Assembly (NCBI GenBank): GCA_020152595.1
Contig: JAIGNY010002845.1
Location: 1,944,501-2,008,500, forward strand
From: Chiridota heheva
Lineage: Eukaryota > Echinodermata > Holothuroidea > Apodida > Chiridotidae
Length of the DNA: 64,000 bases
Direction of reading: 5' to 3'
The translations under genes were made by a program, and so were the position numbers. The number at the start of each line of letters is the position of its first letter. Within the stretch, counting starts at the first letter, position 1. Of the stretch, positions 1 through 62,675 are shown piece after piece. The notes under the pieces were generated by a model. It ran no database searches. It worked only from the letters and a program-made list of their open reading frames with translations, and had not been told where the DNA came from.

Positions 1-59
1 CTGTTTCTTTGAAGTGTTCTTTCATATAAGATGAAACTGCTTGACCCTAAACTAATCCT
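1..59. mobile_element. TTAA-1 element, right end only
   Basis: The sequence reads into the window through the right arm of the TTAA-1 foldback family (motif TTTCATATAAGATGAA, then AACTAATCCT) and stops at a TTAA at 60-63. It matches the right ends of the copies at 15.7, 24.3 and 35.4 kb. The left part lies outside the window. Confidence 0.8.
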
Positions 60-339: not shown

Positions 340-1343
340 TATAAGGTCACATGACTTTGTTTACATCACCATTTTCTTGGGAAAACCAAAGTCGTCTGTT
401 GTACACTTAATTAGATTTACATACGTTTGCATGTTGTTATATCAGATAATTTTTGCCCGGCGGGGGGGGGCACTTCATACTAAAAGTGGTAGGGGTGTGC
501 AGCCCACCAACCGAAAAACATACCCGCAGTATGCAGGTTTTGTGGTACCTGCAGTATGAAATTATACAATTTTGATACCCGCAGTATGAAAGAAGTCAAT
601 TTTGATACCTGCAGTATGAGTATCGACAAAAAACTTTGTAAAAATGGACCAGCAGTACAAAATTAACGCAGTAAAACCTCATTTTTTGGGACCTGCACTA
701 CGAAAATGACAAAAAAAAGACAAATTTGTTTACTTTAAAAAAATAAAAATAAAAAAATAAATTTAGTACAAATTTTTACTTTTTTTGTAGTAAAAAAAGA
801 CACCTGCACTACAAAAATGGTGTAAAAAAGGCACCTGCTCGGGCGGCACATGTATATACATATACCGGTTATTTTTGTAAGATAATTATGCTGTAATCTT
901 GCTGTACCATTGGTTGCACTAATAGATGTGTGCGGGGAAATAAAAAGACATTTTCTCGATTTCCATCTCATCTTGATTAACGTTTGAAGTGGGTTTCTGC
1001 TGTACGACACGACGGCTTCAACCTACGGTTCACACAAGGAATTGCAGCGAGCACTTTATATCAGGTGTGTAGGCTTTGTCCGAGTATAACGAACAATCAG
1101 ATGGCGTTAATTGTTAATGTTACTCTTCGTATACCCGGCGAAAATATAAAACTGATGGAAAATATGAAATAAAATCGGAAGCGAGAAAAAAGTTGCACTT
1201 AGTAAGATTCGCTGAACTGGTACTGGTAGATTAGCTAGCATGTGATGTGACTGAGCTGTGTGAAGACATGCAAAATGCAACAATGCCGCTGCCCTGCAAT
1301 ATGGAGTACAGTTGAGTTAGAGTCACGTGATGAAATCCATTTA
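340..1343 (-). mobile_element. TTAA-2 element, truncated and interrupted copy
   Basis: The reverse complement aligns along its length with the complete TTAA-2 element at 21441-22284. Shared landmarks include GGTCACATGACTTTG, ATAGATGTGTGCGGG and CACTTTATATCAGGT. Both outer ends are eroded. The alignment is split by the polyG element at 455-868, which is absent from the complete copy, so this is a nested insertion. Short open frames here are not conserved coding sequence. Confidence 0.8.
455..868 (+). mobile_element. polyG element inserted in TTAA-2, hAT-like
   Basis: The insert starts GCCCGGCGGGG and contains several direct repeats of the motif TACCYGCAGTATGAA about 30 bp apart. Related copies lie at 18.3 and 48.3 kb; all share ACTAAAAGTGGTAGG near the left end. 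It is bordered by TAATTTTT (447-454) and TTATTTTT (869-876), a 7/8 match, while the uninterrupted TTAA-2 copy has a single such stretch. An 8-bp duplication fits the hAT superfamily, but the terminal inverted repeats are weak, so the class is an inference. Confidence 0.65.
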
Positions 1344-1814
1344 TTGGCATAGCTGAGTTTTCATATTGTTTTTATTGATGATGCCATCAATATAAATTAG
1401 CTGGTACTGTTATTCTTTTCATTTAACATTGCCAATTGCTTTATCTTCAACCATTATCAAATCAAAAATGAAAGTAAATAGTCTATAGCCTTTATTTAAA
1501 ACATTATTATTTTGTATTTTTTTGTGTGCTGATTGAAGTTTGTGGAGTATGTGTGTAATGTGTACAAATGTATTTGATATATGAATGGAAAAACAGCAAA
1601 AAAACTCATTCCATTTTGCACTGATCTCAGCATTTTGATAATAGAGTTTTTAAATATTGTTTCATCATCAATATAAGATTAGCCTGTATTCTTATTCTTT
1701 TCTTTTAGCATTGCCTTATATTGCTTTATCTTAAACATTATCAAACCCAATTTTTAGTATTCTATAGCATTTTAATCAAAAAATGAATTGTTAGTTTTTA
1801 AGTAATGGCTCCTC
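1344..1814. repeat. AT-rich stretch with a diverged ~110-bp direct duplication
   Basis: Segments near 1360-1470 and 1648-1755 share ordered motifs (ATCAATATAARATTAGC, TTATTCTTTTC, TTTATCTT, AACATTATCAAA). They look like an old direct duplication about 288 bp apart. No coding or RNA signal was seen. Confidence 0.5.
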
Positions 1815-2285
1815 AATACGGAACGCCAAACGGACCACTAAATATGTTAACAAAACATATGTTCGCAAACAAATATGGTCGCAGAATTTAAGTTCAGAAA
1901 ACAAATATGCTCGGAAAATGTATGCTCAGAAACAAATACGTTCAGAAAATATATGTTCAAAATCAATATCTTCGCAAGAGATATGTTCCCAATTTTAAGC
2001 TGGCAAAAAACCACGTTACAAGCAATATCTTCGCAATTTGTGACAAAAATACTTGGTGGTCCCTTTGGCAGGCATGCTTGCCAAAAGGATCACCAAACGT
2101 TTGTCACAAAAGTAGTTCATGAAATACTTCACAAGGTAGTATGTGAAACACTTCACAAAAGGAAATCACTTTACAAAGTACGTGAAATACTTTTAGTCGT
2201 GAAATATTTCACAAGTAGTACATGAAATACTTCACAAGGTAGTTCGAAATACAGTGTTCGCAAACAGTGGCGTATGCATATTCAT
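1815..2285 (+). mobile_element. ATATG-family dispersed repeat, copy 1
   Basis: This is the inverse of 6294-6870: it begins ACGCCAAACGGACCACT and ends GCGTATGCATATTCATG, both found in reverse at the second copy. Inside, a short degenerate motif like ACATATGTTCGCAAAC recurs many times, which leaves long frames open by composition. A hairpin-capable stretch (about 2055-2098, GGTCCCTTTGGCA with TTGCCAAAAGGATCACC) and a run of TGAAATACTTCACAA repeats follow. No transposase is visible and the class is unknown. Confidence 0.6.
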
Positions 2286-2690
2286 GATTCAATTGTTTTG
2301 AAGGTCATGACTTGTCCTTTTCCTTAATAAAAATTTCTAGTAAATTATGACCACAAACTTACTGTAGCAAATATTGAGACCACTTATCTTACTTGAAATA
2401 ACTGCTCAACCAAGAGACCGAATACAATGGGGCCATTGATAAGGGAATTTGATTCTAATTACTTGTGGTTTTTAGAATAAAGAAAATAAAGAGGAAAAGT
2501 GTGACCCGACCTGCTTATTTATCAGGTCGGGTCTGACTGTTTGAAATTTTAAGGAGCACAACAACTAATGTGTGGCCTACCGGGGTTGTCCTCCTATCCA
2601 CAGACATGGATAGCTCGGCTTGTTCAACCTTGGGGTATATTTTCAGCTGATCACTGGTAACATGGTACGTAATGCAATAAGAACTTTGGG
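2286..2690 (+). mobile_element. Hairpin family (GACCCGACCTG), copy 1
   Basis: Its reverse complement recurs at 46655-47035, including AAGTCATGACTTGTCC-like, AATGGGGCCATTGAT-like and AAACAGTCAGACCCGAC blocks. The core hairpin at 2503-2533 is the best-kept part. It abuts the ATATG repeat directly. Confidence 0.6.
2503..2533. repeat. Perfect 11-bp stem hairpin
   Basis: GACCCGACCTG and CAGGTCGGGTC form a perfect inverted repeat around a 9-base AT-rich loop. The same hairpin with a different loop is kept at 46736-46766, so it belongs to the repeat family. There is no T-tract after it, so it is not a simple Pol III or bacterial terminator. Confidence 0.85.
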
Positions 2691-3078
2691 GTTGCTACAC
2701 GAAAATAAGTAGAAAGTGTTTGTAAAATCATATAACGGGTTCATTTTCATGTAGGCCGCGATGGAAAAAGATTAAAAAATGTATCATGGAGACAGGAATG
2801 GTGATCGCATAGCGGTGCATAAAATAGCAGAGTCAAACAAGGATGCTTTAAGGGGACTGTTTTTTGGTACCATAGCTGGAGGACCCCAAGGATGCTATTG
2901 TAGAGGGAAGGGAGGGGCCCTCAAAGCAATAGCCAGTCCAACGCAGGCATATACATGCATTTTCAGGGCCTGACCAAATTGTGCTACGAAAGTTCCCACC
3001 AACAGTGACGTAAAAGAATTATTTTGGTGGGGCGGAGGACAACAAATTAGTATCATTAAATCTATAGGCAACATCAGG
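2691..3078. other. Unassigned sequence
   Basis: I see no motif-bearing open frame, tandem repeat or copy of another family here. It ends at the hAT-like target site. Confidence 0.5.
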
Positions 3079-3716
3079 CAGGGGCGTAACTGAAGGGAGT
3101 GGGGTGTGCTACACCTCTTAGAAAAAAGTTTGTAGAGCAATTCCAATTTTGACTATTTCGTCAGGCAAAACATGGCACATTTCTGAAGAAAAGTTGTAAA
3201 ACAAATACTTTTGAAAATGTTCTGGAAAATATCATAGTTTTGTTGTTATCTATTTTATGCATGGCCGTATGAACTCTACAATTTTGCCGAACTTTCTCAA
3301 TTTTCAGGGGAAACTTTTCTTCTGCCGCCTGTTTGCATTGGTAGATTTTAAGTTGAGAATTTAATTTTAAAATTGTCTTCTATCCATCAATTAAATTTTC
3401 AAACTTTGTGTTGATTATCACCAGTTCTAAGCAACAAAAACAAGAAATTCTTAGATTCACCCCTGGACACTGCCTGCAGGGGCCCTTAAGCAGGTGAATT
3501 TTGTTTTCGCAACTCTGCTGCATTTAGTACTCTAGCCCAAGCAGAAGTGTCTGACAATGTCAATGGTTGTGTGGGGGTCGGGGGATTGGGGGTGGAAGTC
3601 TATTCTATATCATGTGATTGTAGACACATATTGTTGATAGATAAGTCGGGCAAGTGCAAATTTGTTGTACACTACCCCCCCCCTCCCACCACCCTTAAAG
3701 TCTAGTTATGCCCCTG
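3079..3716. mobile_element. hAT-like MITE with 8-bp target duplication
   Basis: The ends are CAGGGGCGTAACT and, inverted, CAGGGGCATAACT (12/13 identical). The flanks are ACATCAGG (3071-3078) and ACACCAGG (3717-3724), a 7/8 match. An 8-bp duplication and CAG-starting ends are the hAT signature. The interior encodes no transposase, contains C/G homopolymer tracts near the right end, and is non-autonomous. Confidence 0.85.
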
Positions 3717-4920: not shown

Positions 4921-5954
4921 TGAATATGAAAATGGGCCATAAAGAGTAAATGAGCACTGTTTGGTTACTGTCCGTGCCTTTTATATCACTACAAGCTGCT
5001 GCGGCCGACTTCAATAAATATGTGCTTTTTCAAAAATGTATTATTATACTTGTTACCGGCGCCCTCTCACCGCTGCACCAGCCTAGTTACGCCACTAACC
5101 TTGTCCAAGTCATGGATTTTGGCAGAATTAATGTCATCATTGCATTACCAAAAACACCACATTATGGTATACATATACATTTTGACTGTTTGATATACCT
5201 ATACCTGGTTTCAGCCTTCACCTCCTCCAGGTGAGGATTAACCGACGAACTCAAATTTATATATATCGCATTTGTTAAATATTGCCTTCTAGCCAAAAAT
5301 CCCACAAAACTAACCAAAAATGTTAAGATTTCCCGACAAAACTTTGACTGATTTGGAGGCTTGGTGGGGGAGGGGAAATTCCCTTGCAACTCCGTTAGTT
5401 ACGCCACTTCACTCGAACCTAAACATTCTATACAAGTTTTTCGGGGAGGGGTGTCACAACATTCACTGGCGGCGGAACCGGGGCTATGAGGCTCAGCTCC
5501 TCAACAAAAAAATGTGTGTGTGGGTGGGAGGGGTGGGGGAGGGAGGGAAGGGGAAGGGGGGGGGGCTTAAGCTTACCCCCACAGTGTGTTCTAATTTAAA
5601 TTATTTTGGGGTATCACCACATCAAGACAAATTTGCTGGTTAAAGCAAGTTTACTGCATTTAGATATGATTGTAACCCTGCAGGAGGAATGCCAAAATCG
5701 CAGAGCTATTCCCCTGGCCCCCACTATGGTTTTGCACGTCGATCCAGTTATAGGCAGGTCTGGACCTCATGCTCTTTAAACAGAGAAGGCAGAGCTGGGG
5801 GGCTTCAGCCCCTAATAATTTTAGGTGAACATGTGAATTATCACGTTACCCGACCTCATAATAACAATATTGTTATCACATGTCACCTGACCTCGTTAGT
5901 CCCCCCCCCTCCCCTCCCCTCCCCCTCATATTTGGAAGAAAAAATCATTGTTAA
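4921..5954. other. Unassigned, with hAT-like end scraps and a G-run
   Basis: Two isolated right-end-like motifs, TAGTTACGCCACT, occur near 5083 and 5394 without partners. A G-rich run at about 5520-5570 and C-runs near 5900 are potential G-quadruplexes. Open frames here lack recognisable domains. Confidence 0.4.
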
Positions 5955-6150
5955 ATAATTAGTTCGGGGGTCAAACAAATCCATCTTATATGAAAGAAGA
6001 CTTCAAAAGAAACAAAATGGTGACGAAAGCATTCAAAAAATCTTTGTTGAGGAGATTTTTAAGTTTGGTTTAAGTTCAGTTTACGTTTGGTGTCTTTTGT
6101 GTACAAATGACTGAAATTAGACTAGTTGTATTTTTATTACCTGTTTTATT
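5955..6150 (+). mobile_element. TTAA-1 element, left part
   Basis: After TTAA (5951-5954) the sequence reads ATAATTAGTTCGGGGGTCA, then the family motifs CCATCTTATATGAAAG, CTTCAAAAGAAACAAAATGG and CTGAAATTAGACTAGTTG. It stops before the centre of the element; the right arm is missing. Confidence 0.75.
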
Positions 6151-7735: not shown

Positions 7736-7965
7736 AAGAGTTCATCTTATATGAAAGAGGACTCATTCAAAAGAAACACAATGGTGGAGAAACTACTTCA
7801 ATATCTTATTTCGTTTAAGGAGATATTCAAGTTTAAAGCTCTATCTTATATGTGTAGAAATGACTGGTGTAGTAAGTCTACTATGGAAGGTTGGTGCCCT
7901 TATCCTCACATTCTTAACAACTGTTGATGTATTTTGAAGAAAATTTATTTGATTCACTAGAAATC
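7736..7965 (+). mobile_element. TTAA-1 element, solo type-B arm
   Basis: It has the outer arm words TTATATGAAAGAGGACT and AAGAAACACAATGGTG. Its inner arm, GTAGTAAGTCTACTATGG and CTTATCCTCACATTC, matches the right arms at 35.7 and 41.7 kb rather than the common type-A arm. The extreme end and the opposite arm are missing. Confidence 0.7.
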
Positions 7966-15722: not shown

Positions 15723-16118
15723 TTAAAGGATTAGCTTAGGGGTCAAGCAAGTCTATCTTATATGAAAGAGGACTTCAAAAGAAACAAAATGGTGAAGAAA
15801 GCATTCAGAAATCTTTTTCAGTTAAAGGATTAATTCAGGGGTCAAGCAAGTCCACCTTATATGAAAGAGGACTTCAAAAGAAACAAAATGGTAAAGAAAG
15901 CATCTAAAAATCTTATTCCATTAAAGGATTAATTCAGGGGTCAAGCAAGTCCACCTTATATGAAAGAGGACTTCAAAAGAAACAAAATGGTAAAGAAAGC
16001 ATCTAAAAATCTTATTCTATTAAAGAATTAGTTCAGGGGTCAAGCAAGTCCACCTTATATGAAAGAGGACTTCAAAAGGAACAAAACAGTGAAGAGAGCA
16101 TTCAAAATTCTTATTCCA
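15723..16118 (+). repeat. 99-bp tandem repeat of a transposon end, 4 units
   Basis: TTAA recurs at 15723, 15822, 15921 and 16020, exactly 99 bp apart. Each is followed by the TTAA-1 outer arm (GGTCAAGCAAGTC, CTTATATGAAAGAGGACTTC, AAAGAAAGCAT). Only the fourth unit continues into the rest of the element. The units are very alike, so amplification is fairly recent. Confidence 0.95.
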
Positions 16119-16592
16119 TTTCTTTTAAAGAGATATTCAAATATAAAGTTTGGTATCATTTCTTTAGAAACGACTGAAATCAGACTAGTTGTGATGTCAC
16201 AGCCTCAGATTCCTCAAAGTCTTTATGTATTTGAAAAAAAGTGTATTTAATTTTTCCACTATTTAAATTATTCTTCCACGAACTTTCTTCAGGTGGTATA
16301 TTATAAATACCCTTCCTAGATTCAGTTTTACTACTTTTCTGACAAATTCCATGGTTTTAAGTCACAAAATCGCATGACAAAGTATGATAGAATACATAAA
16401 GACTGAGGAATCTGAGGCTATGACATCACAACTAGTCTGATTTCAGTCATTTCTACACATGAATGATACCAAACTTTAAACTAAAATATCTCCTTAACGG
16501 AATAAGATTTTTGACTGTTTTCTTCCCCATTCTGTTTCTTTTGAAGTCTCTTTCATATAAGATAAACTTGCCTTGACCACTGAACTAATCCT
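15727..16592. mobile_element. TTAA-1 element, complete type A/A copy with amplified left end
   Basis: The element runs from AGGATTAGCTTAGGGGTCA to GAACTAATCCT, between TTAA at 15723-15726 and 16593-16596. The inner arms carry AGACTAGTTGTGATGTCAC and its inverse, so nearly the whole element folds back. The opposite arm of TTAA-5 keeps the unoccupied site CTATTAAAGAAAC (14929-14941), with only one TTAA. Confidence 0.9.
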
Positions 16593-18630: not shown

Positions 18631-19288
18631 CCCCCTCCCCTCCCACTCTCCCCCAGGTTTTACATCTCAGGCTACAATTTGCATATTTTATGCAAATTAT
18701 GGCAATCTTGGTATTTTCTTTTGTGAATCCTTCATATTTCTAAATGGCCATCATAATTCTTTGCGGTGGTGCTGCAAATTCTGACCAAACATTTTGTGAG
18801 TCTTTAAGTCTTTGACATGTTCCTAAGATAGTTCTAGCAAGAATAAACTTCCCATCATTTTCAAGAAAGGCATTCAAAGATCTAGATAAAGATTTAAAGC
18901 ATTTATTTCTTCAAAATTCAAAAACTGATCTGATCAGATTTACATACTCTTTTAAGCAATATAGAAAGTGCTACACATCCATAGAACTTTAATATAACAT
19001 GAACAAATCCTGTGCCTTTTAAAAGTCAGCACTAAATTAGGGATATAGGAAATTAGAAAATATAAGATAAATTACTGAGTATTTTTCTGTATATCAGTGA
19101 CAACTTTGACAAAAGTTCAATTTAGACAGATAATCACCTATTGTTATTCTTACTTCAGTTTTAGGAATTTTCTAGCTGCCTTAATAAAAAGCCACTTTCT
19201 AGTTAGGCCCAAATAAAATGTATATCAATTTCTGAAGTTTCCAACAATACCTCAACAATTGGAAAATTGGCACCCCAGTTATTTCATA
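18631..19288. other. Unassigned AT-rich sequence
   Basis: No identifiable feature. Confidence 0.35.
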
Positions 19289-19292
19289 TTAA

Positions 19293-19405
19293 AGGAATAG
19301 TTCAGGGGTCATGCAAGACTATCTTATATGAAAGAGGACTTGAAAAGAAACAAAATAGTGAAGAAAGCATTCAAAAATTGTATTCCATTGAGGAGATATT
19401 TAAGT
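19293..19405 (+). mobile_element. TTAA-1 element, left end only
   Basis: TTAA at 19289-19292 is followed by AGGAATAGTTCAGGGGTCA and the outer arm down to TTGAGGAGATATTTAAGTT. There the sequence switches to the foldback at 19408, so the element is truncated by, or was a target for, that element. Confidence 0.75.
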
Positions 19406-19407
19406 TA

Positions 19408-20035
19408 CATATTTTGTCCTCCACAACATTTCAAAATTTGAAAATGTTCAACATTTGAAAATGTTCAACATTTGAAAATGTTCAACATTTGAAAATGTTC
19501 AACATTTGAAAATGTTCAACATTTGAAAATGCTTTTATTTGAAAATGCTCAACATTTGAAAATGTTCAACATTTGAAAATGCTCAACATTTGAAAATGTT
19601 CAACATTTGAAAATGCTCAACATTTGAAAAATGCTTAACATTTAAAAAACAGTCACTGATAGCGCCTTTACTCTTAGCATCCTCAGCATGCAAACAACCA
19701 AGGGGTGACAGCAGCAGGGGTTTAACCTGAGGCTGCGTACCCTCACTCAGGACCTCTATTTTTCATTTATTGAGGAGTGATAGGAATATTTTATTTCTAA
19801 TATTTTTTTTTTAGTCGCCCTCCTCCAAGAAGATCCTGACACTTCCTCTGGAAAATCCATGGAGAACTTTGAATAAATATTACTTGAAATATGTGTAGGG
19901 ATGACAACCAACCTTGGTTGTCACACCTTGGCTGTATGATGAGGATGCTAAGAGTAAAAGGCGTTATCAGTGAACATTTTTAATGTTGAGTATTTTCAAA
20001 TGTTGAACATTTTAAAATGTTGTGGAAGGACGACG
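19408..20035. mobile_element. Foldback element with one-armed minisatellite
   Basis: The left arm starts TTTGTCCTCCACAACATTTC and the right arm ends AAAATGTTGTGGAAGGAC. Inner arm blocks are also inverted: CACTGATAGCGCCTTTACTC, TTAGCATCCTCAGCAT and ACCAAGGGGTGAC have partners at 19895-19975. The left arm contains a 17-bp array of about 12 units; the right arm has only about two. No coding sequence was found. Confidence 0.8.
19434..19640 (+). repeat. 17-bp minisatellite, unit AACATTTGAAAATGTTC
   Basis: About 12 units with T/C variants (TGTTC or TGCTC) and one shortened unit. The unit is itself nearly palindromic, as expected if it grew from the foldback arm. Confidence 0.95.
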
Positions 20036-20957
20036 ACTTGAAACTTCTTATAGTCAAGTGCCCCATAGGACCTACAAAGCCAACTTGCTTTCCAGTTGTC
20101 CTGGATGGTAGAATAGCCAAGCTAAATCATATCTGTATTTTTAGGAAATGACATTTTCATTGAAATATTATCAATATTTTACAGAGCAATTGTCACAGGA
20201 TCATGACAATTGGAAGAAATTTGTGGTTGCCTGTGTAGCAGCCGATAACTATGACAACAGCAACAATGATGATAAAGAATCACACTCAGATGGTTGTAAA
20301 TTGCCAAAGAAATTATTATTTCCAGTGCATACTGTACCTCTTTAAATCAATGGAAGCAAGAATGTTCATAAATCTTGAAGATAGTTTGTCCTATAATTAT
20401 TTTGTCTCAGAATTTTACTTCCTACCCTTTTGATTTACCGAGAATAACAAACTAGAAAAAACAAAAATATTGACTTTCTTTCATCTTCACTCTTGTGAGA
20501 GCTGGAGATCAGGGCTGCCTTGTTGTTATTCAACTATCAATAATCTCTCTGAAAGCTGCAATCTTGGACACTATACATTAAAAATGTGTACTGCTTTTTA
20601 TGAACACACTTTTCTAGTAATCTGTATCATTGACCATCCATACATCTTAAATAATGGCACTTTCCGTATTCTATCATTTTTAATTAGTATGTTGTTTTAA
20701 TTTTTAGGACTTTTGCACAATCCCCCTCCCCCCAATTCAAGTTTGATCGTTTATAATGAGGAATTGAAAATTGATAAAAAGTTTTGTCCAAGACTGTAGT
20801 ATCACTTCTACTTTTGGATTTCCCTTCATCGTCCCATCGTAAACCATGACGCCAGGTTCTGTTTGTAGAGCAAATTGTGTTTTATGATGGAGGTGGGCCA
20901 GAACTGCTTAGATGACCAACTGGTTTGTGGTGTAAACTGCCTGATTAGGGAGTTATA
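20036..20957. other. Unassigned sequence
   Basis: Open frames at 20148-20345 and 20470-20700 lack recognisable domains or splice context, and I do not call them genes. Confidence 0.35.
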
Positions 20958-21105
20958 TGGCCTTGTTTATATGGCATTTAAGGAACCATTTAGCGTGTCA
21001 TCCTTGTTAATTGTTTAATGAGGTTCTTAAGGGTTAATTAACGTTAAGGACCTTTTGGTTTTTCCCATGAAATAAATCTTGGGGAAATCTGTACATTCAT
21101 AGGTA
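20958..21105 (+). repeat. Dispersed repeat, copy with an empty TTAA site
   Basis: ATGGCCTTGTTTATATGGCA, GAGGTTCTTAAGGG, TTTTGGTTTTTCCCATGAAA and GAAATCTGTACATT match 24321-24347 joined to 24911-25035. Here the site reads GCATTTAAGGAACC with a single TTAA. Confidence 0.9.
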
Positions 21106-24320: not shown

Positions 24321-25035
24321 ATATGGCCTTGTTTATATGGCATTTAATGGATTAGTTCCGTGGTCAAGCTTGTCCATCTTATATTAAAGAGACTTCAAAA
24401 GAAACAAAATGGTGAAGAAAGCATTGTAAAATTTTATTCCGTTTAGGAAATATTCCAGTTTAAAGTTTAATATCATTTCTTAGGAAATAACTGAAAACAG
24501 ACTAGTTGTGATGTCACAGCCTCAGATTCCTAAAGTTCTTATGTATTTTAAAGGAAGTTTATTTACTTTTTTCACTATTTAAGTCATTTTTCTTCAAACT
24601 TTCTTCAGGTGGTATATTATAAATACCCTTACTAGATTCAGTTTTACTAATTTTTTGACATATCCCATGGTTTATAAGCCACAAAATTGCAGGACAAAAT
24701 ATGATAGAATACATAAAGACTTTGAAGAATCTGAGGCTATGACATCACAACTAGTCTGATTTCAGTTGTTTCTTTACAAATAATACCAAACATTAAACTT
24801 AAATATCTCCTTAATGGAATAATATTTTTGAATGGTTTCTTCACTATTTTGTTTCTTTTGAAGTCCTCTTTCATATAAGACAGACTTGCATGACCTCTGA
24901 ACCTAATCCTTTAAGAAACTATTTAGCATGTTATCCCTGTTAATTGTCTACTGAGGTTCTTAAGGGTAACAAGAGTTGACAAAATTTTGGTTTTTCCCAT
25001 GAAATAGTATCTCAGCGAAATCTGTACATTTATAG
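24321..25035 (+). repeat. Dispersed repeat, copy filled by a TTAA-1 element
   Basis: This is the same repeat as 20958-21105, split by the insertion at 24348-24910. Left flank GGCCTTGTTTATATGGCA and right flank GAAACTATTTAGCATG rejoin exactly as in the empty copy. Confidence 0.9.
24348..24910. mobile_element. TTAA-1 element, complete type A/A copy
   Basis: A 563-bp foldback between TTAA at 24344-24347 and 24911-24914. It starts TGGATTAGTTCCG and ends AACCTAATCCT. Both inner arms contain the type-A block (AGACTAGTTGTGATGTCACA and inverse). The unfilled paralogous site at 20980-20983 has a single TTAA, so four bases were duplicated on insertion. No coding sequence is supported. Confidence 0.95.
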
Positions 25036-25425
25036 TATATCACATACTACATTTATAGTGTATCACATATTACATTTATAGTGTATCACATATAACATTT
25101 ATAGTGTATCACATATTACATTTATAGTGTATTACATATTACATTTATAGTGTATCACATATAACATTTAGTGTATTACATTTATAGTGTATCATGTATT
25201 ACATTTATAGTGTATATATTACATTTTAGTGTATTATATACATTTATATATACATTTATAGTGTATCATTTATAGTGTATCACATATTTCATTTATAGTG
25301 TATCACATATTACATTTATAATATATCACATATTACATTTATAGTGTATCACATTTACATTTATAGTGTATCACATATTACATTTATAGTGTATCACATA
25401 TTACATTTATAGTGTATCATATATT
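25036..25425 (+). repeat. 23-bp minisatellite, unit CATTTATAGTGTATCACATATTA
   Basis: About 16-17 units; the middle (25160-25270) is disordered by deletions and partial units. It begins immediately after the dispersed repeat that ends at about 25035, in a position where the empty copy at 21.1 kb has no array. Confidence 0.9.
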
Positions 25426-28267: not shown

Positions 28268-28945
28268 CAGTGTGCTTTTGAATTCACTGTGCTTTTGAAT
28301 TCACTGTGCTTTTGAATTCACTGTGCTTTTGAATTCACTGTGCTTTTGAATTCACTGTGCTTTTGAATTCACTGTGCTTTTGAATTCACTGTGCTTTTGA
28401 ATTCACTGTGCTTTGAATTCACTGTGCTTTTGAATTCACTGTGCTTTTGAATTCACTGTGCTTTTGAATTCACTGTGCTTTTGAATTCACTGTGCTTTTG
28501 AATTCACTGTGCTTTTGAATTCACTGTGCTTTTGAATTCACTGTGCTTTTGAATTCACTGTGCTTTCCAATTCACTGTGCTTTCCAATTCACTGTGCTTT
28601 CCAATTCACTGTGCTTTCTAATTCACTGTGCTTTCCAATTCATTGTGCTTTTGAATTCACTGTGCTTTTGAATCCACTGTGCTTTTGAATTCACTGTGCT
28701 TTTGAATTCACTGTGCTTTTGAATTCACTGTGCTTTTGAATTCACTGTGCTTTTGAATTCACTGTGCTTTTGAATTCACTGTGCTTTTGAATTCACTGTG
28801 CTTTTGAATTCACTGTGCTTTTGAATTCACTGTGCTTTTGAATTCACTGTGCTTTTGAATTTACTGTGCTTTTGAATTCACTGTGCTTTTGAATTCACTG
28901 TGCTTTTGAATCCACTGTGCTTTTGAATTCACTGTGCATTGAATC
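28268..28945 (+). repeat. 17-bp satellite, unit ATTCACTGTGCTTTTGA
   Basis: About 39 units. Most are identical; a variant block with CTTTCCAATTC lies at about 28563-28650, flanked by the common form. Each common unit contains GAATTC. The homogeneity suggests recent expansion. Confidence 0.97.
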
Positions 28946-30955: not shown

Positions 30956-31245
30956 TGCAGTGCCTCAGTGGTTAAGGAGTCACGCTCGTATTCGATAGGT
31001 ACCGGGTTCGATTCCTGTCGTGAGTGCTATATTGTGTCCTTGAGCAAGACACTTTACTCTATTTGCTTCAGTCCACTCAGCTGTGAAAATGAGTACCAGC
31101 ACTGCTGGGGAGTTAATCTGCGATGGACTGGCGTCCCATCCAGGGGGAGTCATGTACTCTCATCTGCTTGCACCATTCAAACTAGGGATAAGCACTGGCT
31201 CTATGAGCCTAATGGCTTGATGGAATTGGCTTTTATTTGGATTCA
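30956..31245 (+). mobile_element. tRNA-derived SINE (TTGAGCAAG core) inside the LINE
   Basis: The A-box region is TCAGTGGTTAAGGAG and the B box GGGTTCGATTCC. The core CTTGAGCAAGACACTTTA (31039-31056) is followed by CAGTCCACTCAGCTGTGAAA and GGACTGGCGTCCCATCCAGG, the latter like the widespread L2-type 3' tail. It ends near CTAATGGCTTGATGGA. It lies within the minus-strand LINE between its RT and post-RT regions, so it inserted later. Confidence 0.9.
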
Positions 31246-31513
31246 GTTTCAAACAGTTCTGAGATAGCCAGAAACAAATGTCATGAATGCAGTTTTCAAG
31301 CAACACAGCAGAATGATTATTAGGGTCGAAAGCAATATACAGATGGCTGTCATCGGCGTAGAAATGGTACTGGACCTCATATTTCTTCGCAATGTCGGTG
31401 TCACACACATCGCAAACATTATTGGACCTACGACAGACCCTTGTGGTACACCAAAAGTAACCTCCTGTGGGGCAGATCAAATATCCTTCATCAAAATCCT
31501 TGGATACGTCCAT
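31160..31513 (-). pseudogene. LINE reverse transcriptase, catalytic YADD segment
   Basis: One frame has YHFYADDSHLYIAFD, the catalytic box with both aspartates, followed by CFWLSQNCLKLNPNKS, the downstream RT motif. The upstream motif FGVPQGSVVGPIMF is present in a different frame at about 31470-31425, so a frameshift separates the two boxes. The SINE cuts off the end. Confidence 0.9.
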
Positions 31514-31651
31514 CTATGTAACAATTAATTCAACTGAGGGCATCTCCAGTAATGCAAAAATGTCGCTGCAGTCAGAATAAATCATATTTCATTTATGTAT
31601 TGAAAGCTGCACTCATGTCAAGAAGAGCAAGTGGTACCATTGTCTCATTAT

Positions 31652-31948
31652 TCAACGCTGACAAAATGTCGCCATGAACACGCAACAGAGCAGTTCCGGT
31701 GGAATGAAAGATCCGGTAAGCACTGTAATAAGTATCCAATACTTAAGTGAAAGAAGAGAAGTTATCCTTGTGGCAACAACATGTTCTAGTAGTGTTGAAA
31801 CAAAACTGAGGTTCAAAATTAAAAAGTTCTTGAGGATATTTGGGTCAAATGATGCCTTCTTAAGCAGCGAGGCTACAAATGCCTCTTGTTTGGGAACCTC
31901 ACAATTTGACAAGGACAAGTTAGTGGTATCAGTAAGGATGGGAAGCAT
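31652..31948 (-). pseudogene. LINE reverse transcriptase, N-terminal segment, 3' of the array
   Basis: The frame includes DTTNLSLSNCEVPK, FVASLLKKASFDPN and LKNFLILNLSFVSTLLEHVV, close to the usual ...VP..fK.A.V.PLLKKP.LDPN.L.NYRPISNLSFLSK.LEKVV blocks of L2/CR1-type RT. The internal 97-bp array lies immediately 5' of this in coding order. Confidence 0.85.
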
Positions 31949-32450
31949 TTCATCAGTGTACTTCTATAAATGCCTCTTTGCATTGTTTGGGAACCTCACA
32001 ATTTGACAAGGACAAGTTAGTGGTATCAGTAAGGATGGGAAGCATTTCATCAGTGTACTTCTATAAATGCCTCTTTGCATTGTTTGGGAACCTCACAATT
32101 TGACAAGGACAAGTTAGTGGTATCAGTAAGGATGGGAAGCATTTCATCAGTGTACTTCTATAAATGCCTCTTTGTATTGTTTGGGAACCTCACAATTTGA
32201 CAAGGACAAGTTAGTGGTATCAGTGAGGATGGGAAGCATTTCATCAGTGTACTTCTATAAATGCCTCTTTGTATTGTTTGGGAACCTCACAATTTGACAA
32301 GGACAAGTTAGTGGTATCAGTGAGGATGGGAAGCATTTCATCAGTGTACTTCTATAAATGCCTCTTTGCATGGTTTGGGAACCTGACAATTTGACAAGGA
32401 CAAGTTAATGGTATCAGTGAGGATGGGAAGCATTTCATCAGTGTACTTCT
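31880..32450 (-). repeat. 97-bp minisatellite inside the LINE RT frame
   Basis: TGCCTCTTTG recurs at 31972, 32069, 32166, 32263 and 32360 (97-bp steps), with a shorter 92-bp step to a diverged unit at about 31880. Each unit carries the coding segment for the ...LPILTDT.NLSLSN..VP block. 97 is not a multiple of three, so the frame is lost in the array. Confidence 0.95.
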
Positions 32451-32586
32451 TAAGAAGCCAGGTTGGGAGGGAGTCAAGATCACATGTGGATGCAGATGCC
32501 TTGACAATAATCCGCTGAATTTTATCAGCTGTTGTATAGCCAAACGAAAAGAAATCAGAAACTGATGGTGCAGAAGGGGAAAACAT
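32341..32586 (-). pseudogene. LINE reverse transcriptase start, 5' of the array
   Basis: The frame reads DLDSLPTWLLKKYTDEMLPI, then NLSLSNCQVP: the conserved opening of the RT domain (LDPLPT.LLK...D.L.P.IT.I.N.SL..G.VP). It runs directly into the 97-bp array. Confidence 0.85.
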
Positions 32587-32796
32587 GGTGCTATCATTTT
32601 GTTAAAGAAGGCACATGTTCACCAGGTAGAATGTTGTAACAAATTTTTCGAGATCTTGTCAGTGAAAAATCTAGTGAAAACATCTGGCAAGTTAGCACAA
32701 CTGGTATGTTGGATGGGATGTGGGAGGGCTTGTTCCAATTAAGAATACCTTTCGTATGATTAAACAGTTTATTCTGATCACCCCCACAATCAAATC

Positions 32797-33456
32797 TCAA
32801 TTTGAATAGAAATCTGTTTTAGCTCTGTTAGCGAGATAACACACTTTGTTACACTGAGCACGATACGTAATGCGATCAGACTCAAGATTAGATTTAGGGT
32901 ACTGCCGCTCAAGCTGTCTTCGTAATACCTTTCCTTCAAGTAAGTCTGTTGAATACCACTGCGTGTTTGGGCAAATCATAATGACACTTTAAGTTTCTGG
33001 AACATGTGTATCAAGAATCTTCCTTATTCCAGTGTAATAACTATCAACAGCAGTAGCGAGATCCGAATCACAAATAGCAATATCAAGCATGACTATGTCC
33101 CTTTTTAATGCAAGTCTGTCAATTTGGTTGCATTTGCGACATTTTACTTGCCTGTAGATGACATCAGGTTTAGCAAAGATTAAATCAAATTTAATACATT
33201 TGTGGTCAGATAAGCAAGGATCAGAAATAACGGTTTCATTTCGAATCAGTCCAGAATCAGAAGAAATAACCAAATCAAGTTCACTTTCATGGGTTGACTT
33301 GTGGACAGACTGAACTAGATTACATGAAGATATCAGCGAAAAGAAAGTTTTGACATCAGTATCGGATGAGCGATCAACATGTAAATTGAAATCACCACCA
33401 ATAATGTTAATTTTACTCACAGAAATTCCAATTATGTATTTCTCAAATTCTTGCAT
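32797..33456 (-). pseudogene. LINE endonuclease C-terminal half and linker
   Basis: The frame 33456-32989 shows INIIGGDFNLHVDRSSD, the GDFN catalytic block of AP-type endonucleases. STHESELDLVISSD and SDHKCIKFDL follow, the terminal SDH block with the catalytic histidine. The next frame (32979-32797) shows QWYSTDLLEGKVLRRQLER and YRAQCNKVCYLANRAK, the usual linker before RT. Key endonuclease residues persist but frames are broken between the blocks. Confidence 0.9.
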
Positions 33457-33469
33457 AAAATTGTTGAAA

Positions 33470-33820
33470 TTGTGTCCATGAACACCAGGCCAATAAATAA
33501 CAGCAACTTTAAGTTTTTTTACTAGAGATGGTGAGATTAGCTTCTAATAATTCAAAAGTTTCATAATTGTCACTTGATAACAGTTGAACTTTGATATTTC
33601 ACTTATAAAGGAGGGCAATACCCCCACCCCCCTCTTGTTAGTCTGAGGTTTGCGAGAAAAAGAGTAACCTCTAGGTGTAATATCAGTAGTGACAGCGTCG
33701 TCATCAAGGTGACCAAGCTAAGTTTCAGTTATCATAAAAAGTTAAAGCTTGCTGTCAACAACAAGTTCACATAAAGCAGTGGATTTATTCCAGATGGAGC
33801 GGGGGTTAAACAAGCCACAG
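33470..33820 (-). pseudogene. LINE endonuclease N-terminal half, broken by stops
   Basis: The reverse strand reads GLFNPRSIWNKSTALCEL, then after a stop MITET, another stop, then DITPRGYSFSRKPQTNKRGV and VAVIYWPGVHG. These are the N.RS..NK, I.ET.L, gY.f.R..r..+gGGv and v.viYRpp blocks of LINE endonucleases. The catalytic glutamate block (ITET) is legible but flanked by stops. Confidence 0.85.
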
Positions 33821-41295: not shown

Positions 41296-42838
41296 AGGAT
41301 TAGTTCAAGGGTCCGACAACTTCATCTTATATGAAAGAGGACTTCAAAATAAACAAAATGGTGAAAAAATCATTCAAAAATCGTATTCCGTTAAGAAGAT
41401 GATTTCACTTTAAAGTTTGGTATCATTTGTGTAGAAACGACTGAAATCGGACTAGTTGTGATGTCAGAGCCTCAGATTCCTCAAAATCTTTATGTATTAT
41501 ATCATATTTAGCCTGTGATTATGTGCCTTACAAACCATTGGATATGTCAGGAAAGTACTAAATCTATTAAGGGTAATTGTAATTTACCACCCGAAGAAAG
41601 TTTGAAGAAAAATGAAAGAAAAAAATAGTCCAAAAAATAAATAGATTTTCTTTAGAATACATCAACAATTGTTGAGAATGTGAGGATGAGGGCACAACTT
41701 TCCATAGTAGACTTGCTACACCAGTCGTTTCTACACAGATAAGCTTTTAACTTGAACATCTCCTTAACAAAATATGATTACCTCCGCCAACAAATTTGGA
41801 CGGAGGTTATGTTTTCGCCTGTGTTTGTTTGTCTGTTTATTTGTTTGTGATCAAGATATCTCGAGAACTGATGATTGGATTTGAATTAAATTTGGTGTGT
41901 GATTGTTTACTGCTTATGGAAGAAGTGATCAAAATTTGAGACATATTGGAACAAGAGAAGGGTAAAAATGGGGGGTAGGGACATGTTTTTGCCTCTGTTT
42001 GTTTGTCTGTGATCAAGATATCTCCAGAACTGATGATTGGATTTAGATTACATTTAGTGTGTGGTTTTGTTACTGCTTACGTGGGGACATTTTAAGGTGA
42101 GTTTGTCTGTCATCAAAATATCTCCAGAACTGATGATTGAATTTTGATTGAATTTGGTTTGTGGTTTTGTTACTGTTTCTTGAAGAAGTGATTAAAATTT
42201 AAGACTAATTGAAACAAGGGACGGGCAGAAATTGAGGAGTGGGGATGTTTTAGGATGAGATCTGTCAAGACTCAATTGTCAAAACTTAGTTGTCAAGACT
42301 AATTTGAAACTTTCAAATGGAATGTGCTGAACAATGACTTTGCACTCTGAATGAAGATCCAAACAATCAATTTTCTGGACTCAAAGAGACTTACATCAAG
42401 TGTTCTCTGGAATCAATGAAAATGAAACAATTGGTTTCTGCCATGAATGGAAAATGATGGAATGTAAATCCTGGCTGAATAGAGCTCAAACAATAATGCA
42501 TCACTTGAATAAAAGTGAAAACAATGGTATGGTCTTGAAAGAAATCCAGTCAGAAGATAATCCTTTAAGTGTTCAGATTGCAAATGTTCATTACAGATCA
42601 AAACTGGAGATGAATCTTGGTGGGCCTAGGGTTTCTGAAGTAGATTATTGCGGGTATGGGGATTGAATAAACTCTAAAACTATTCCAGGCTTGTTGGAAT
42701 TGCAATGAGCGGAGGTATGCGCTCTAGAGAGTGCTAATATTCTAGTTCTTAAAGCTGTCTTCTGCATTTTGTTTTTTTTAAAGCCCTTTTTTATACATAT
42801 CATATAAGATGAACTTGCTTGACCAATGGACTAAACCT
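41296..42838. mobile_element. TTAA-1 element, hybrid A/B copy, split by a CTCCG element
   Basis: The left end AGGATTAGTTCAAGGGTCC follows TTAA (41292-41295). The right end ACTAAACCT precedes TTAA (42839-42842). The left inner arm is type A (GGACTAGTTGTGATGTCAGA) and the right is type B (CCATAGTAGACTTGCTACAC). The right outer arm is broken at about 41778 and resumes at 42746, around the CTCCG element. Confidence 0.88.
41779..42745 (+). mobile_element. CTCCG non-autonomous element, copy 1, nested
   Basis: Starts TACCTCCGCCAACAAATTTG and ends AGTGCTAATATTCTAG. It shares its length and order with 55695-56546: GTTTGTTTGTCTGT, CAAGATATCTCSAGAACTG, GGAATTGCAAYGAG, GGAGGTATGC. A ~110-180-bp internal block (ATATCTCCAGAACTGATGAT) is repeated three times. 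The same style of repeat is widespread in marine invertebrate genomes; that is from memory. Confidence 0.85.
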
Positions 42839-43360: not shown

Positions 43361-43534
43361 TTAAGTAAAGGCTAGATGCATGTAGTGTTTATGAAAAAGC
43401 ATTTAGGAAAACTGGTGAATGAAAATAACATGCACAGAACATATCATTTTCTTATTCTTACATTTAAATTACAATTCAAAAATCAAAACTCTATTTAATA
43501 AACATATATGACTGAAATGGTTTTAAAACATTTG
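43361..43534. other. Unassigned AT-rich spacer
   Basis: No feature was seen before the 23-bp satellite. Confidence 0.3.
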
Positions 43535-44488
43535 ATTATATGCACTTTAAATATTTGATTATATGCACTTTAAATATTTGATTATATGCACTTTAAATAT
43601 TTGTTTATATGAACTTTAAATATTTGATTATATGCACTTTTGATATTTGATTGTATGCACTTTTGATATTTGATTATATGTAGTTTAAATATTTGATTAT
43701 ATGCACATTAAATATTTGATTATATGCATTTTAAATATTTGACTATATGTATCTTAAATATTTGATTATATGCATTTTAAAATGTTTGATTAAATGCACT
43801 TTTGATATTTGATTATATGTTTTTTAATATTTGCCAAGATGCATTTGAAATATTTGATTATATGCACTTTAAATATTTGATTATATGTACTTTAAATATT
43901 TGATTATATGCACTTTAGATATTTGATTATATGCACTTTAAATATTTGACTATATGTATCTTAAATATTTGATTATATGCATTTTAAAATGTTTGATTAA
44001 ATGCACTTTTGATATTTGATTATATGCTTTTTAATATTTGCCAATATGCATTTGAAATATTTGATTAAATGCACTTTAAATATTTGATTATATGTACTTT
44101 AAATATTTGATTATATGCACTTTAGATATTTGATTATATGCACTTTAAATATTTGACTATATGTATCTTAAATATTTGATTATATGCATTTTAAAATGTT
44201 TGATTAAATGCACTTTTGATATTTGATTATATGCTTTTTAATATTTGCCAATATGCATTTGAAATATTTGATTATATGCACTTTAAATATTTGGTTATAT
44301 GCACTTGAAATATTTACTTATACGCACTTTAAACATTTGATTATATGCACTTAAAATATTTGATTATATGCACTTAAATATTTGTTAATATGCACGTTAA
44401 ATATTTGATTATATGCACATTAAATATTTGATTATATGCACTTTAAATATTTGATTATATGCACTTTAAATATTTGATTATATGCACT
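43535..44488 (+). repeat. 23-bp satellite with ~207-bp higher-order repeat
   Basis: About 40 units of the form TATTTGATTATATGCACTTTAAA. A recognisable series of nine variant units (including TTTGACTATATGTATCTTAA, TTTAAAATGTTTGATTAAAT and TTTGCCAAKATGCAT) recurs. The marker GACTATATG lies at 43741, 43949 and 44155, so the higher-order step is 206-208 bp, close to 9 x 23. Confidence 0.95.
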
Positions 44489-58949: not shown

Positions 58950-59206
58950 TGGAGAAGTCGGTGGAGGAGAAAATTAGAGAAAGATCATGGCACGAGCACT
59001 TTGGCGATGTTATGAATATCAGTAATGATGAGGGGGAAGATGAAGGTCTACACCAAGAAATGGCACCAGCAGAACATGGATTAGCAGGTATTAAAATGGG
59101 ATTAGTCACGAGAGCAATAAATGGCACCAGCAGAGCATGGATTAGCAGGTATCAACATGGGATTAGTCACGAGAGCAAGAAATGGCACCAGCAGAACATG
59201 GATTAG
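58950..59206 (+). pseudogene. RTE linker before RT, running into the array
   Basis: The frame reads MEKSVEEKIRERSWHEHFGD, matching the RW.EHF...LN block that separates endonuclease and RT in RTE proteins. It then enters the array, where AEHGLAG-type repeats are encoded by 61-bp units. Confidence 0.75.
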
Positions 59207-60557
59207 CAGGTATCAATATGGGATCAGTCACAAGAGCAAGAAATGGCACCAGCAGAACATGGATTAGCAGGTATCAACATGGGATTAGTCACAAGAGCAA
59301 GAAATGGCACCAGCAGAACATGGATTAGCAGGTATCAACATGGGATCAGTCACAAGAGCAAGAAATGGCACCAGCAGAACATGGATTAGCAGGTATCAAC
59401 ATGGGATCAGTCAGGAGAGCAAGAAATGGCACCAGCAGAACATGGATTAGCAGGTATTAACATGGGATCAGTCACGAGAGCAAGAAATGGCACCAGCAGA
59501 ACATGCATTAGCAGGTATCAACATGGGATCAGTCACGAGAGCAAGAAATGGCGCCAGCAAAACATGGATTAGCAGGTATCAACACGGGATTAGACAAGTG
59601 AGCAAGAAATGGCACCAGCAGAACATGGATTAGCTGGTATCAACATGGAATCAGTCACGAGATCAAGAAATGGCACCAGCAAAACATGGATTAGCAGGTA
59701 TCAACACGGGATTAGACAAGTGAGCAAGAAATGGCACCAGCAGAACATGGATTAGCAAGTATCAACATGGGATTAGTCACGAGAGCAAGAAATGGCACCA
59801 GCAGAACATGGATTAGCAGGTATCAACATGGAATCAGTCAGGAGAGCAAGAAATGGCACCAGCCTGGCAGAACATGGATTAGGAGGTATCAATATGGGAT
59901 CAGTCACGAGAGCAAGAAATGGCACCAGCAGAACATGGATTAGATATCAACAGGTCACAAGAGCAAGAAATACCAGCAGAACATGGATTAGCAGATGGGA
60001 TCAGTCACAAGAGCAAGAAATGGCACCAGCAGAACATGGATTAGCAGGTATCAACATGGGATTAGTCACGAGAGCAAGAAATGGCACCAGCAGAACATGG
60101 ATTAGCAGGTATCAACATGGGATCAGTCAGGAGAGCAAGAAATGGCACCAGCAGAACATGGATTAGCAGGTATCAACATGGGATTAGTCACGAGAGCAAG
60201 AAATGGCACCAGCAGAACATGGATTAGCAGGTATCAACATGGGAAATGGCACCAGCAGAACATGGATTCAGGAGAGCAAGAAATGGCACCAGCAAAACAT
60301 GGATTAGCAGGTATCAACATGGGATCAGTCACGAGAGCAAGAAATGGGACCAGCAGAACATGGATTAGCAGGTATCAACATGGGATCAGTCACGAGAGAA
60401 AGAAATGGCACCAGCAGAACATGGATTAGTATCCAGGTCATTAACAAGAAATGGCACCAGCAGGATTCAGTCATGGGACAGTCAGAGCAAGAAATGGCAC
60501 CAGCAGAACATGGATTAGCAGGTATCAACATAAGATCAGTCAGGAGAGATAAAATCA
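59056..60557 (+). repeat. 61-bp minisatellite in the RTE coding region, about 24 units
   Basis: ATGGCACCAGC begins units at 59060 and 59121 and onward at 61-bp steps. Units read AGAACATGGATTAGCAGGTA, TCAACATGGGATCAGTCACG and AGAGCAAGAA. Short deletions occur near 59940-60000, 60240-60280 and 60430-60490. 61 is one more than 60, so each unit shifts the frame. Confidence 0.97.
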
Positions 60558-62024: not shown

Positions 62025-62675
62025 TATGGTATAGCCCTTTTTTAGGTAGATGTTGATGAGGATATGGTATAGCCCTTTTTTAGGTTCTGTTGATGAGGAT
62101 ATGGTATAGCCCTTTTTTAGGTACTGTTGATGAGGATATGGTATAGCCCTTTTTAGGTACTGTTGATGAGGATATGGTATAGCCCTTTTTTAGGTAGATA
62201 TTAATAAAGATATGGTATAGCCCTTTTTTTAGGTAGATGTTGATGAGGATATAGTCTAGCCCTTTTAGGTACTGTTGACGAGGATATGATATAGCCCTTT
62301 TTCAGGTACTGTTGATGAGGATATGGTATTACCCCTTTTTTAGGTATTGCTGATGAGGATATGTTATAGCCCTTTTTTTAGGTAGATGTTGATGGAATAG
62401 CCCTTTTTTAGGTACTATTGATGAGGATATGGTATACAGGATATGGTATAGCCCTTTTTTAGGTAGTGTTGATGAGAATATGGTATGGAGTTTGTTTTTA
62501 GGTACTGTTGATTAGGATATGGTATAGCTCGTTTTAGGTACTGTTGATGAGGATATAGAATAGCCCTTGTTTAGGTACTGTTGATGAGGATATGGTATAG
62601 CCCTTGTTTAGGTACTGTTGATGAGAATATGGTATAGTCCTTGTTTAGGTACTATTGATGAGGATATGATATAGC
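62025..62675 (+). repeat. ~38-bp minisatellite at the RTE 3' end, about 17 units
   Basis: Units read ATGGTATAGCCCTTTTTTAG, then GTACTGTTGATGAGGATA, with the T-run length and AGATGTTGA/ACTGTTGA variants. It starts directly after the coding end (CTGAAAGCC); RTE elements often end in short tandem repeats, so this may be an expanded terminus. Confidence 0.95.

Follow-up and report, generated by a model that had tools for sequence, protein, structure and literature searches.

The abundant TTAA-1 repeat family of Chiridota heheva, present in thousands of copies in the assembly, is very probably a Kolobok-superfamily MITE, non-autonomous and with long TIRs. As far as the literature shows, it is most likely a newly noted member of this already known type; no published name for it was found in the literature, Repbase lying outside the search. 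We describe it from one copy in the window (the whole stretch of 64,000 nucleotides analyzed here), which also holds an unfilled relative of that copy's flanks:

24348 to 24910, plus strand: TTAA-1 MITE copy, 563 bp, with ends TGGATTAGTTCC...CTAATCCT
24344 to 24347, no strand: left copy of the target site, TTAA (sequence reading, coordinates re-checked)
24911 to 24914, no strand: right copy of the target site, TTAA (sequence reading, coordinates re-checked)
24349 to 24550, plus strand: left terminal inverted repeat, about 203 bp (self-alignment)
24705 to 24909, minus strand: right terminal inverted repeat, about 205 bp (self-alignment)
20955 to 21102, plus strand: unfilled relative of the flanks, with a single TTAA at 20978 to 20981 (alignment and sequence reading)
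24911 to 25035, plus strand: flank to the right of the insertion, matching the unfilled relative at 82% identity

Self-alignment shows that this 24-kb copy is built as an inverted repeat, each arm about 203 bp long, and no stop-to-stop open reading frame (ORF) of at least 100 amino acids lies inside it. At the filled site the left flank runs up to ...TATGGCATTTAA and the right flank reads TTAAGAAACT; the unfilled relative reads GCATTTAAGGAACC across its one TTAA. With TTAA-1 and one TTAA taken out, the filled site matches the unfilled relative at 126 of 149 positions (85%; scripted alignment) with two gaps, neither at the insertion junction; identity is 27/27 in the left flank and 82% over 127 bp in the right. 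An earlier, sequence-only reading of the window had proposed TTAA as the target, duplicated on insertion, and this holds: one TTAA at 20978 to 20981 becomes two around 24348 to 24910, through a junction that aligns without a gap. The flank itself had been called a dispersed repeat, a description that we withdraw. A search of the 1.1-Gb assembly placed it twice (two of two candidates), each time within the window, and it is therefore a local repeat that looks like a local duplication, although this search ignores very common words and two places do not prove rarity. Because the flanks are only 85% identical and occur at these two places only, we infer the order of duplication and insertion. The same two facts leave some room for the reading that the unfilled site once held an element, since removed, or that the repeat resembles the flanks for another reason, and precise excision leaving one TTAA would give the same picture as a never-filled site, the two being indistinguishable here. 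We regard such a reading as improbable, given that the alignment passes ungapped through the junction with exactly one TTAA and that the genome-wide TTAA statistics are independent of this filled/unfilled pair.

A search of the assembly with TTAA-1 returned 11,295 first-look candidates, of which 40 were scored and 30 loci taken. Leaving the window copy apart, exact TTAA adjoins the left end of 21 of 29 genomic copies, the right end of 26 and both ends of 19 (the right boundary of one copy, L013, was moved one base by hand for this count). Of the 11 flanks lacking exact TTAA, ten differ from it by a single change, the exception being AAAG, and outside the 4-bp TTAA the flanking bases of the 29 copies are not conserved. 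The family consensus is 564 bases long, starts AGGATTAG and ends CTAATCCT; the start sequence first given for the family had to be corrected, since the 24-kb copy starts TGGATTAG. Identity to the consensus is 92.6 to 95.7% in the 29 genomic copies and 92.9%, 91.1%, and 80.7% in the window copies at 24, 16, and 35 kb, respectively. Across the 1.1-Gb assembly there are 8,499 exact copies of the 21-bp tip, and 5,826 of them (69%) directly follow exact TTAA (backward controls, 0 for both), against a TTAA background of 727 in 79,926 positions (0.9%).

The window holds further copies and fragments of the family:

15727 to 16592, plus strand: second MITE copy with three extra TIR units, outer TTAA at both ends and units joined at TTAA
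35351 to 35902, minus strand: third MITE copy, about 81% identical to the consensus, TTAA on both sides
41296 to 41688, minus strand: MITE copy with an intact TTAA-flanked end at 41296, the other end replaced by another sequence
19293 to 19417, plus strand: truncated MITE with one TTAA-flanked end (similarity search, sequence reading)
42751 to 42838, minus strand: MITE end fragment, then TTAA (similarity search, sequence reading)
1 to 59, minus strand: MITE end truncated at the window edge, then TTAA (similarity search, sequence reading)
5958 to 6129, no strand: diverged MITE fragment (similarity search)
7740 to 7866, no strand: diverged MITE fragment (similarity search)

Exact TTAA stands at 10 of 10 ends of recognizable family copies within the window, an end count from which a 12-mer match at 19000 to 19011, with neither family similarity nor TTAA, was excluded. 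The tip units of the 16-kb copy form a tandem array at 15723 to 16120 with a 99-bp period and 4.0 copies (TRF). From about 41780, by the lost far end of the 41-kb copy, runs a sequence starting ACCTCCGCCAACAAATTTGGACGGAGG that resembles the start of another repeat. TRF reports further arrays in the window, of 23-bp units at 25025 to 25425 and 43526 to 44488, 17-bp units at 28271 to 28937, 61-bp units at 59054 to 60548, and 37-bp units at 62025 to 62675. Pfam on 8 of the 40 window ORFs of at least 100 amino acids gave DUF6451 and two domains of LINE type, one of them below cut-off; LINE-like remains lie at 31160 to 33543 on the minus strand, with endonuclease PF14529 and, below cut-off, reverse transcriptase PF00078.

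Both the target and the termini of TTAA-1 point to Kolobok, for which excerpts of PMC9587614 give a TTAA duplication and 5′-RR...YY-3′ ends. TTAA-1 has the 4-bp TTAA target-site duplication, which suits a piggyBac MITE equally, and its consensus (AGGATTAG...CTAATCCT) has 5′-RR...YY-3′ termini, the first base of the 24-kb copy being T. According to excerpts of PMC6004289, Xenopus Kolobok elements start with AG after TTAA, with ends such as AGGACATGTC, and Xenopus T2 MITEs, presumed to be Kolobok, have TTAA followed by AGGRR. The TTAA-1 consensus has AGGAT at this place, and because its fifth base is T we do not file the family as T2, though it behaves like one.

A candidate transposase partner is consistent with the same assignment. 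A THAP search of the assembly gave 2,889 candidates, of which 150 were scored and 30 taken as loci. At one of these, L043 on contig C97, tip bases 2 to 24 align with TTAA-1 (22 of 23 identical; BLAST E = 1e-5). This TTAA-1-like left tip precedes a THAP exon by about 245 bp and lacks the MITE interior, so that the MITE and the transposase element share only the outer ∼24 bp. The exon matches PF05485 (E = 6e-5 for one half and 2e-6 for the other) and contains DAVPTIF, and about 4.7 kb past it on the same contig are frames with SGDGRC, ATDRH, DVWH, and NHLWWSAQTC, in that order. Judged from published descriptions in excerpt, these residues would represent the D, D, DxxH, and zinc-finger layout of Kolobok, whose transposase is described with a DxxH and a zinc finger (PMC9587614) and whose entry in a motif table lists THAP with AVPTIF and DDE (PMC6004289). 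The DDE part reaches the cut-off for no Pfam family (weak MULE match, E = 0.034).

The C97 copy is decayed, with TTCT in place of TTAA and two stops in the THAP exon. L077 matches the L043 element at 91% identity, starting at the second base of the tip and reaching into the THAP exon (the first base differs), and its tip is preceded by an intact TTAA. The longer L043 tip, AGGATTAGTTCAGGGGTC[AC]ATCAAAAAATATTC, occurs with at most three mismatches at 10 places in the genome (backward control, 0), preceded by TTAA at five, TTGA at three, and TCAA and TTCT at one each. Three of the other nine places were examined, L077 among them; at the remaining two, L076 and L078, the same tip is followed by sequence matching C97 about 10 kb further on. 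The similarity between L078 and C97 stops beside a TTAA with no inverted AGGATTAG-type tip that would mark a right end of the C97 element, and L069, the closest sister transposase (57% amino acid identity), has no such end in the 7 kb scanned. The sequence-only reading had proposed looking for a transposase gene between AGGATTAGTTCA-type ends and testing it for a piggyBac domain: such an end is found on one side, at a THAP/DxxH element, and not on the other, and the scanned pieces have no piggyBac match. Diverged TTAA-1 pieces (69 to 77%) just past the transposase frames on C97 (L068, about 5480 to 5900) are probably nested old copies. L063 and L064, where opposite tips lie far apart, were considered as possible autonomous elements and proved to be two independent MITEs, both carrying additional tip units.

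Could TTAA-1 instead be a piggyBac MITE with aberrant ends, mobilized by resident piggyBac transposases? The TTAA duplication would fit, and the genome has 117 PF13843 matches (domain matches alone), several with open frames of at least 450 amino acids. The piggyBac terminal motif CC[C/T]T (from excerpts of PMC2872659) is nevertheless absent from the consensus, which starts AGGATTAG, and the element that does have a TTAA-1 tip carries THAP and DxxH frames, with PF13843 in none of five scanned pieces. We consider this reading highly unlikely and reject piggyBac membership on the terminal motif. Because many piggyBac transposases occur beside Kolobok-like ones, two TTAA-targeting systems seem to coexist in this genome. 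The earlier observation that the ends are not piggyBac-like is thus upheld, and the diverged or undescribed TTAA group suggested to account for them is unneeded, since a second TTAA superfamily with 5′-RR ends, Kolobok, is already established and its published features suffice. Less likely still is membership of an undescribed TTAA-specific superfamily: the DDE part of the candidate partner is above cut-off for no Pfam family, and one DDE piece had no sequence match among solved structures (two hits, E = 0.22 and 0.54), but the target, the RR...YY ends, the THAP domain with AVPTIF, the DxxH, and the zinc-finger-like stretch all fit Kolobok as published in the excerpts cited.

Other elements with THAP or related transposase sequences occur in the genome. 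A protein search gave 24 transposase matches from 37 candidates, at least eight of which have a same-strand THAP match 3.7 to 4.8 kb upstream, among the THAP matches listed. Five of six upstream stretches examined appear to start with TTAA followed by AG, resembling other THAP elements of the genome: L070, L074, and L075 have AGAGGGCCTGCCATGG-like starts and L071 and L073 AGAGGTCATGACAC-like starts, the latter type first met on L059 (TTAA before the left arm, none at the right arm); L072 shows no clear end. In most upstream stretches, chance alone yields several cases of TTAA followed by two purines, and the starts picked therefore rest on resemblance to other THAP-element ends. The most frequent family among the 30 THAP loci (L066, at about 1305 to 3713, L067, L037, L038, and L055) is abundant, about 1.9 to 2.4 kb long, with ends AGAGGGCCTGCCATGG, TIRs of about 220 bp, and a THAP exon; most of the copies read have TTAA followed by AGAGGGCC at each end. 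We rejected this Kolobok-like family as the TTAA-1 partner. It has no match to the C97 transposase pieces; because the L070, L074, and L075 pairs start with similar ends, it may be a non-autonomous derivative of their type.

For TTAA-1 we infer cut-and-paste transposition. A Kolobok transposase, with a THAP DNA-binding domain and a DxxH DDE nuclease, would be supplied by another element, would recognize the AGGATTAGTTCAG(G/T)GGTCAA tip, and would excise the MITE and insert it at TTAA, duplicating the four bases. The enzyme that moves the MITE would presumably be the C97-type transposase or a lost sister.

Several published systems, known to us from excerpts of the papers cited, share parts of this picture. 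Xenopus T2 MITEs (e.g., Xmix/T2-A1) resemble TTAA-1 in their TTAA target, AGG terminus, and high copy number, and Xmix has a tandem-repeat family of its own, Xstir (PMC6004289); TTAA-1 differs in its consensus AGGAT, not AGGRR, in its TIRs of about 205 bp, and in that its tandem units are the TIR tip itself, whereas that paper describes Xstir as the amplification of an internal segment. XKol of Xenopus (PMC6004289) matches TTAA-1 and its candidate partner in TTAA, AG ends, THAP with AVPTIF, and DDE; here, TTAA-1 has no ORF of at least 100 amino acids, and the candidate partner is decayed, with about 4.7 kb separating its THAP exon and DDE frame. KolobokP (PMC9587614) likewise has Kolobok ends and tandem multimers but, unlike TTAA-1, no strong target preference; it has long terminal direct repeats and a His-Me finger nuclease, and in passing we noticed no long terminal direct repeats of this type around a coding interior. 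The coral CMITE and CMITE-IN (PMC2872659) are also TTAA MITEs with tandem arrays, CMITE-IN being a composite of one element inserted into the TTAA of another; unlike TTAA-1, CMITE has piggyBac-type CC[C/T]T ends and is about 100 bp long.

The tandem tip arrays of TTAA-1 have junctions at recurrent positions. The sequence examined contains 119 distinct tips, 94 with exact TTAA, and 32 of the 119 directly follow another tip unit, in nine sources (L005, L009, L010, L023, L058, L063, L064, L065, and the window; L001, L031, and L032, which overlap the window, and L066 and L067 were left out, and short upstream units may be missed). All 32 detected junctions fall at inverted-repeat positions 45 to 49, 95, 106 to 107, or 113, which correspond to TTCA, TTAA, TTCA, and TTAA in the consensus, respectively; 20 of them come from one array, L065, chosen for its clustered tips. 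The quartet before the new tip is TTAA in 23 of the 32, TTGA in four, TCAA and TAAA in two each, and TTAC in one, each of the nine non-TTAA quartets being one change from TTAA. Genome-wide, exact junction patterns number 757 (99-bp), 543 (110-bp), and 49 (52-bp class), counted for these three preset TTAA-like classes only (backward controls, 0). Same-strand tip spacings below 1 kb among the first 100 places listed are 99, 313, 52, 150, 257, 205, 52, 104, 103, 104, and 110 bp, and 7 of these 11 fall inside the L065 array (C2:1072900-1074300), which spans roughly 1.1 kb in units of about 52 bp and lacks the MITE interior. At C3399:233489-237211, 17 junction matches lie within 3.7 kb.

One tentative explanation, which we think possible rather than probable, is that Kolobok transposition builds satellites, the tip inserting repeatedly at TTAA or similar sites in the inverted repeat of another copy. 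The outer old tip and the new copy would then move as one composite, each round would add a tip unit of 52, 99, or 110 bp, and arrays without the MITE interior would become free minisatellites. Slippage or unequal exchange at TTAA-A microhomology would also explain the arrays, similar junctions being expected from the same microhomology, and growth of an array once it has been seeded is more simply explained by unequal exchange.

For the TTAA-1 family itself, these results give a family of thousands its likely class and make a new TTAA superfamily unneeded. The tip arrays at TTAA-like sites provide a testable case of a DNA transposon end seeding tandem repeats, one that parallels Xmix and Xstir of frogs as described in the excerpts cited above.
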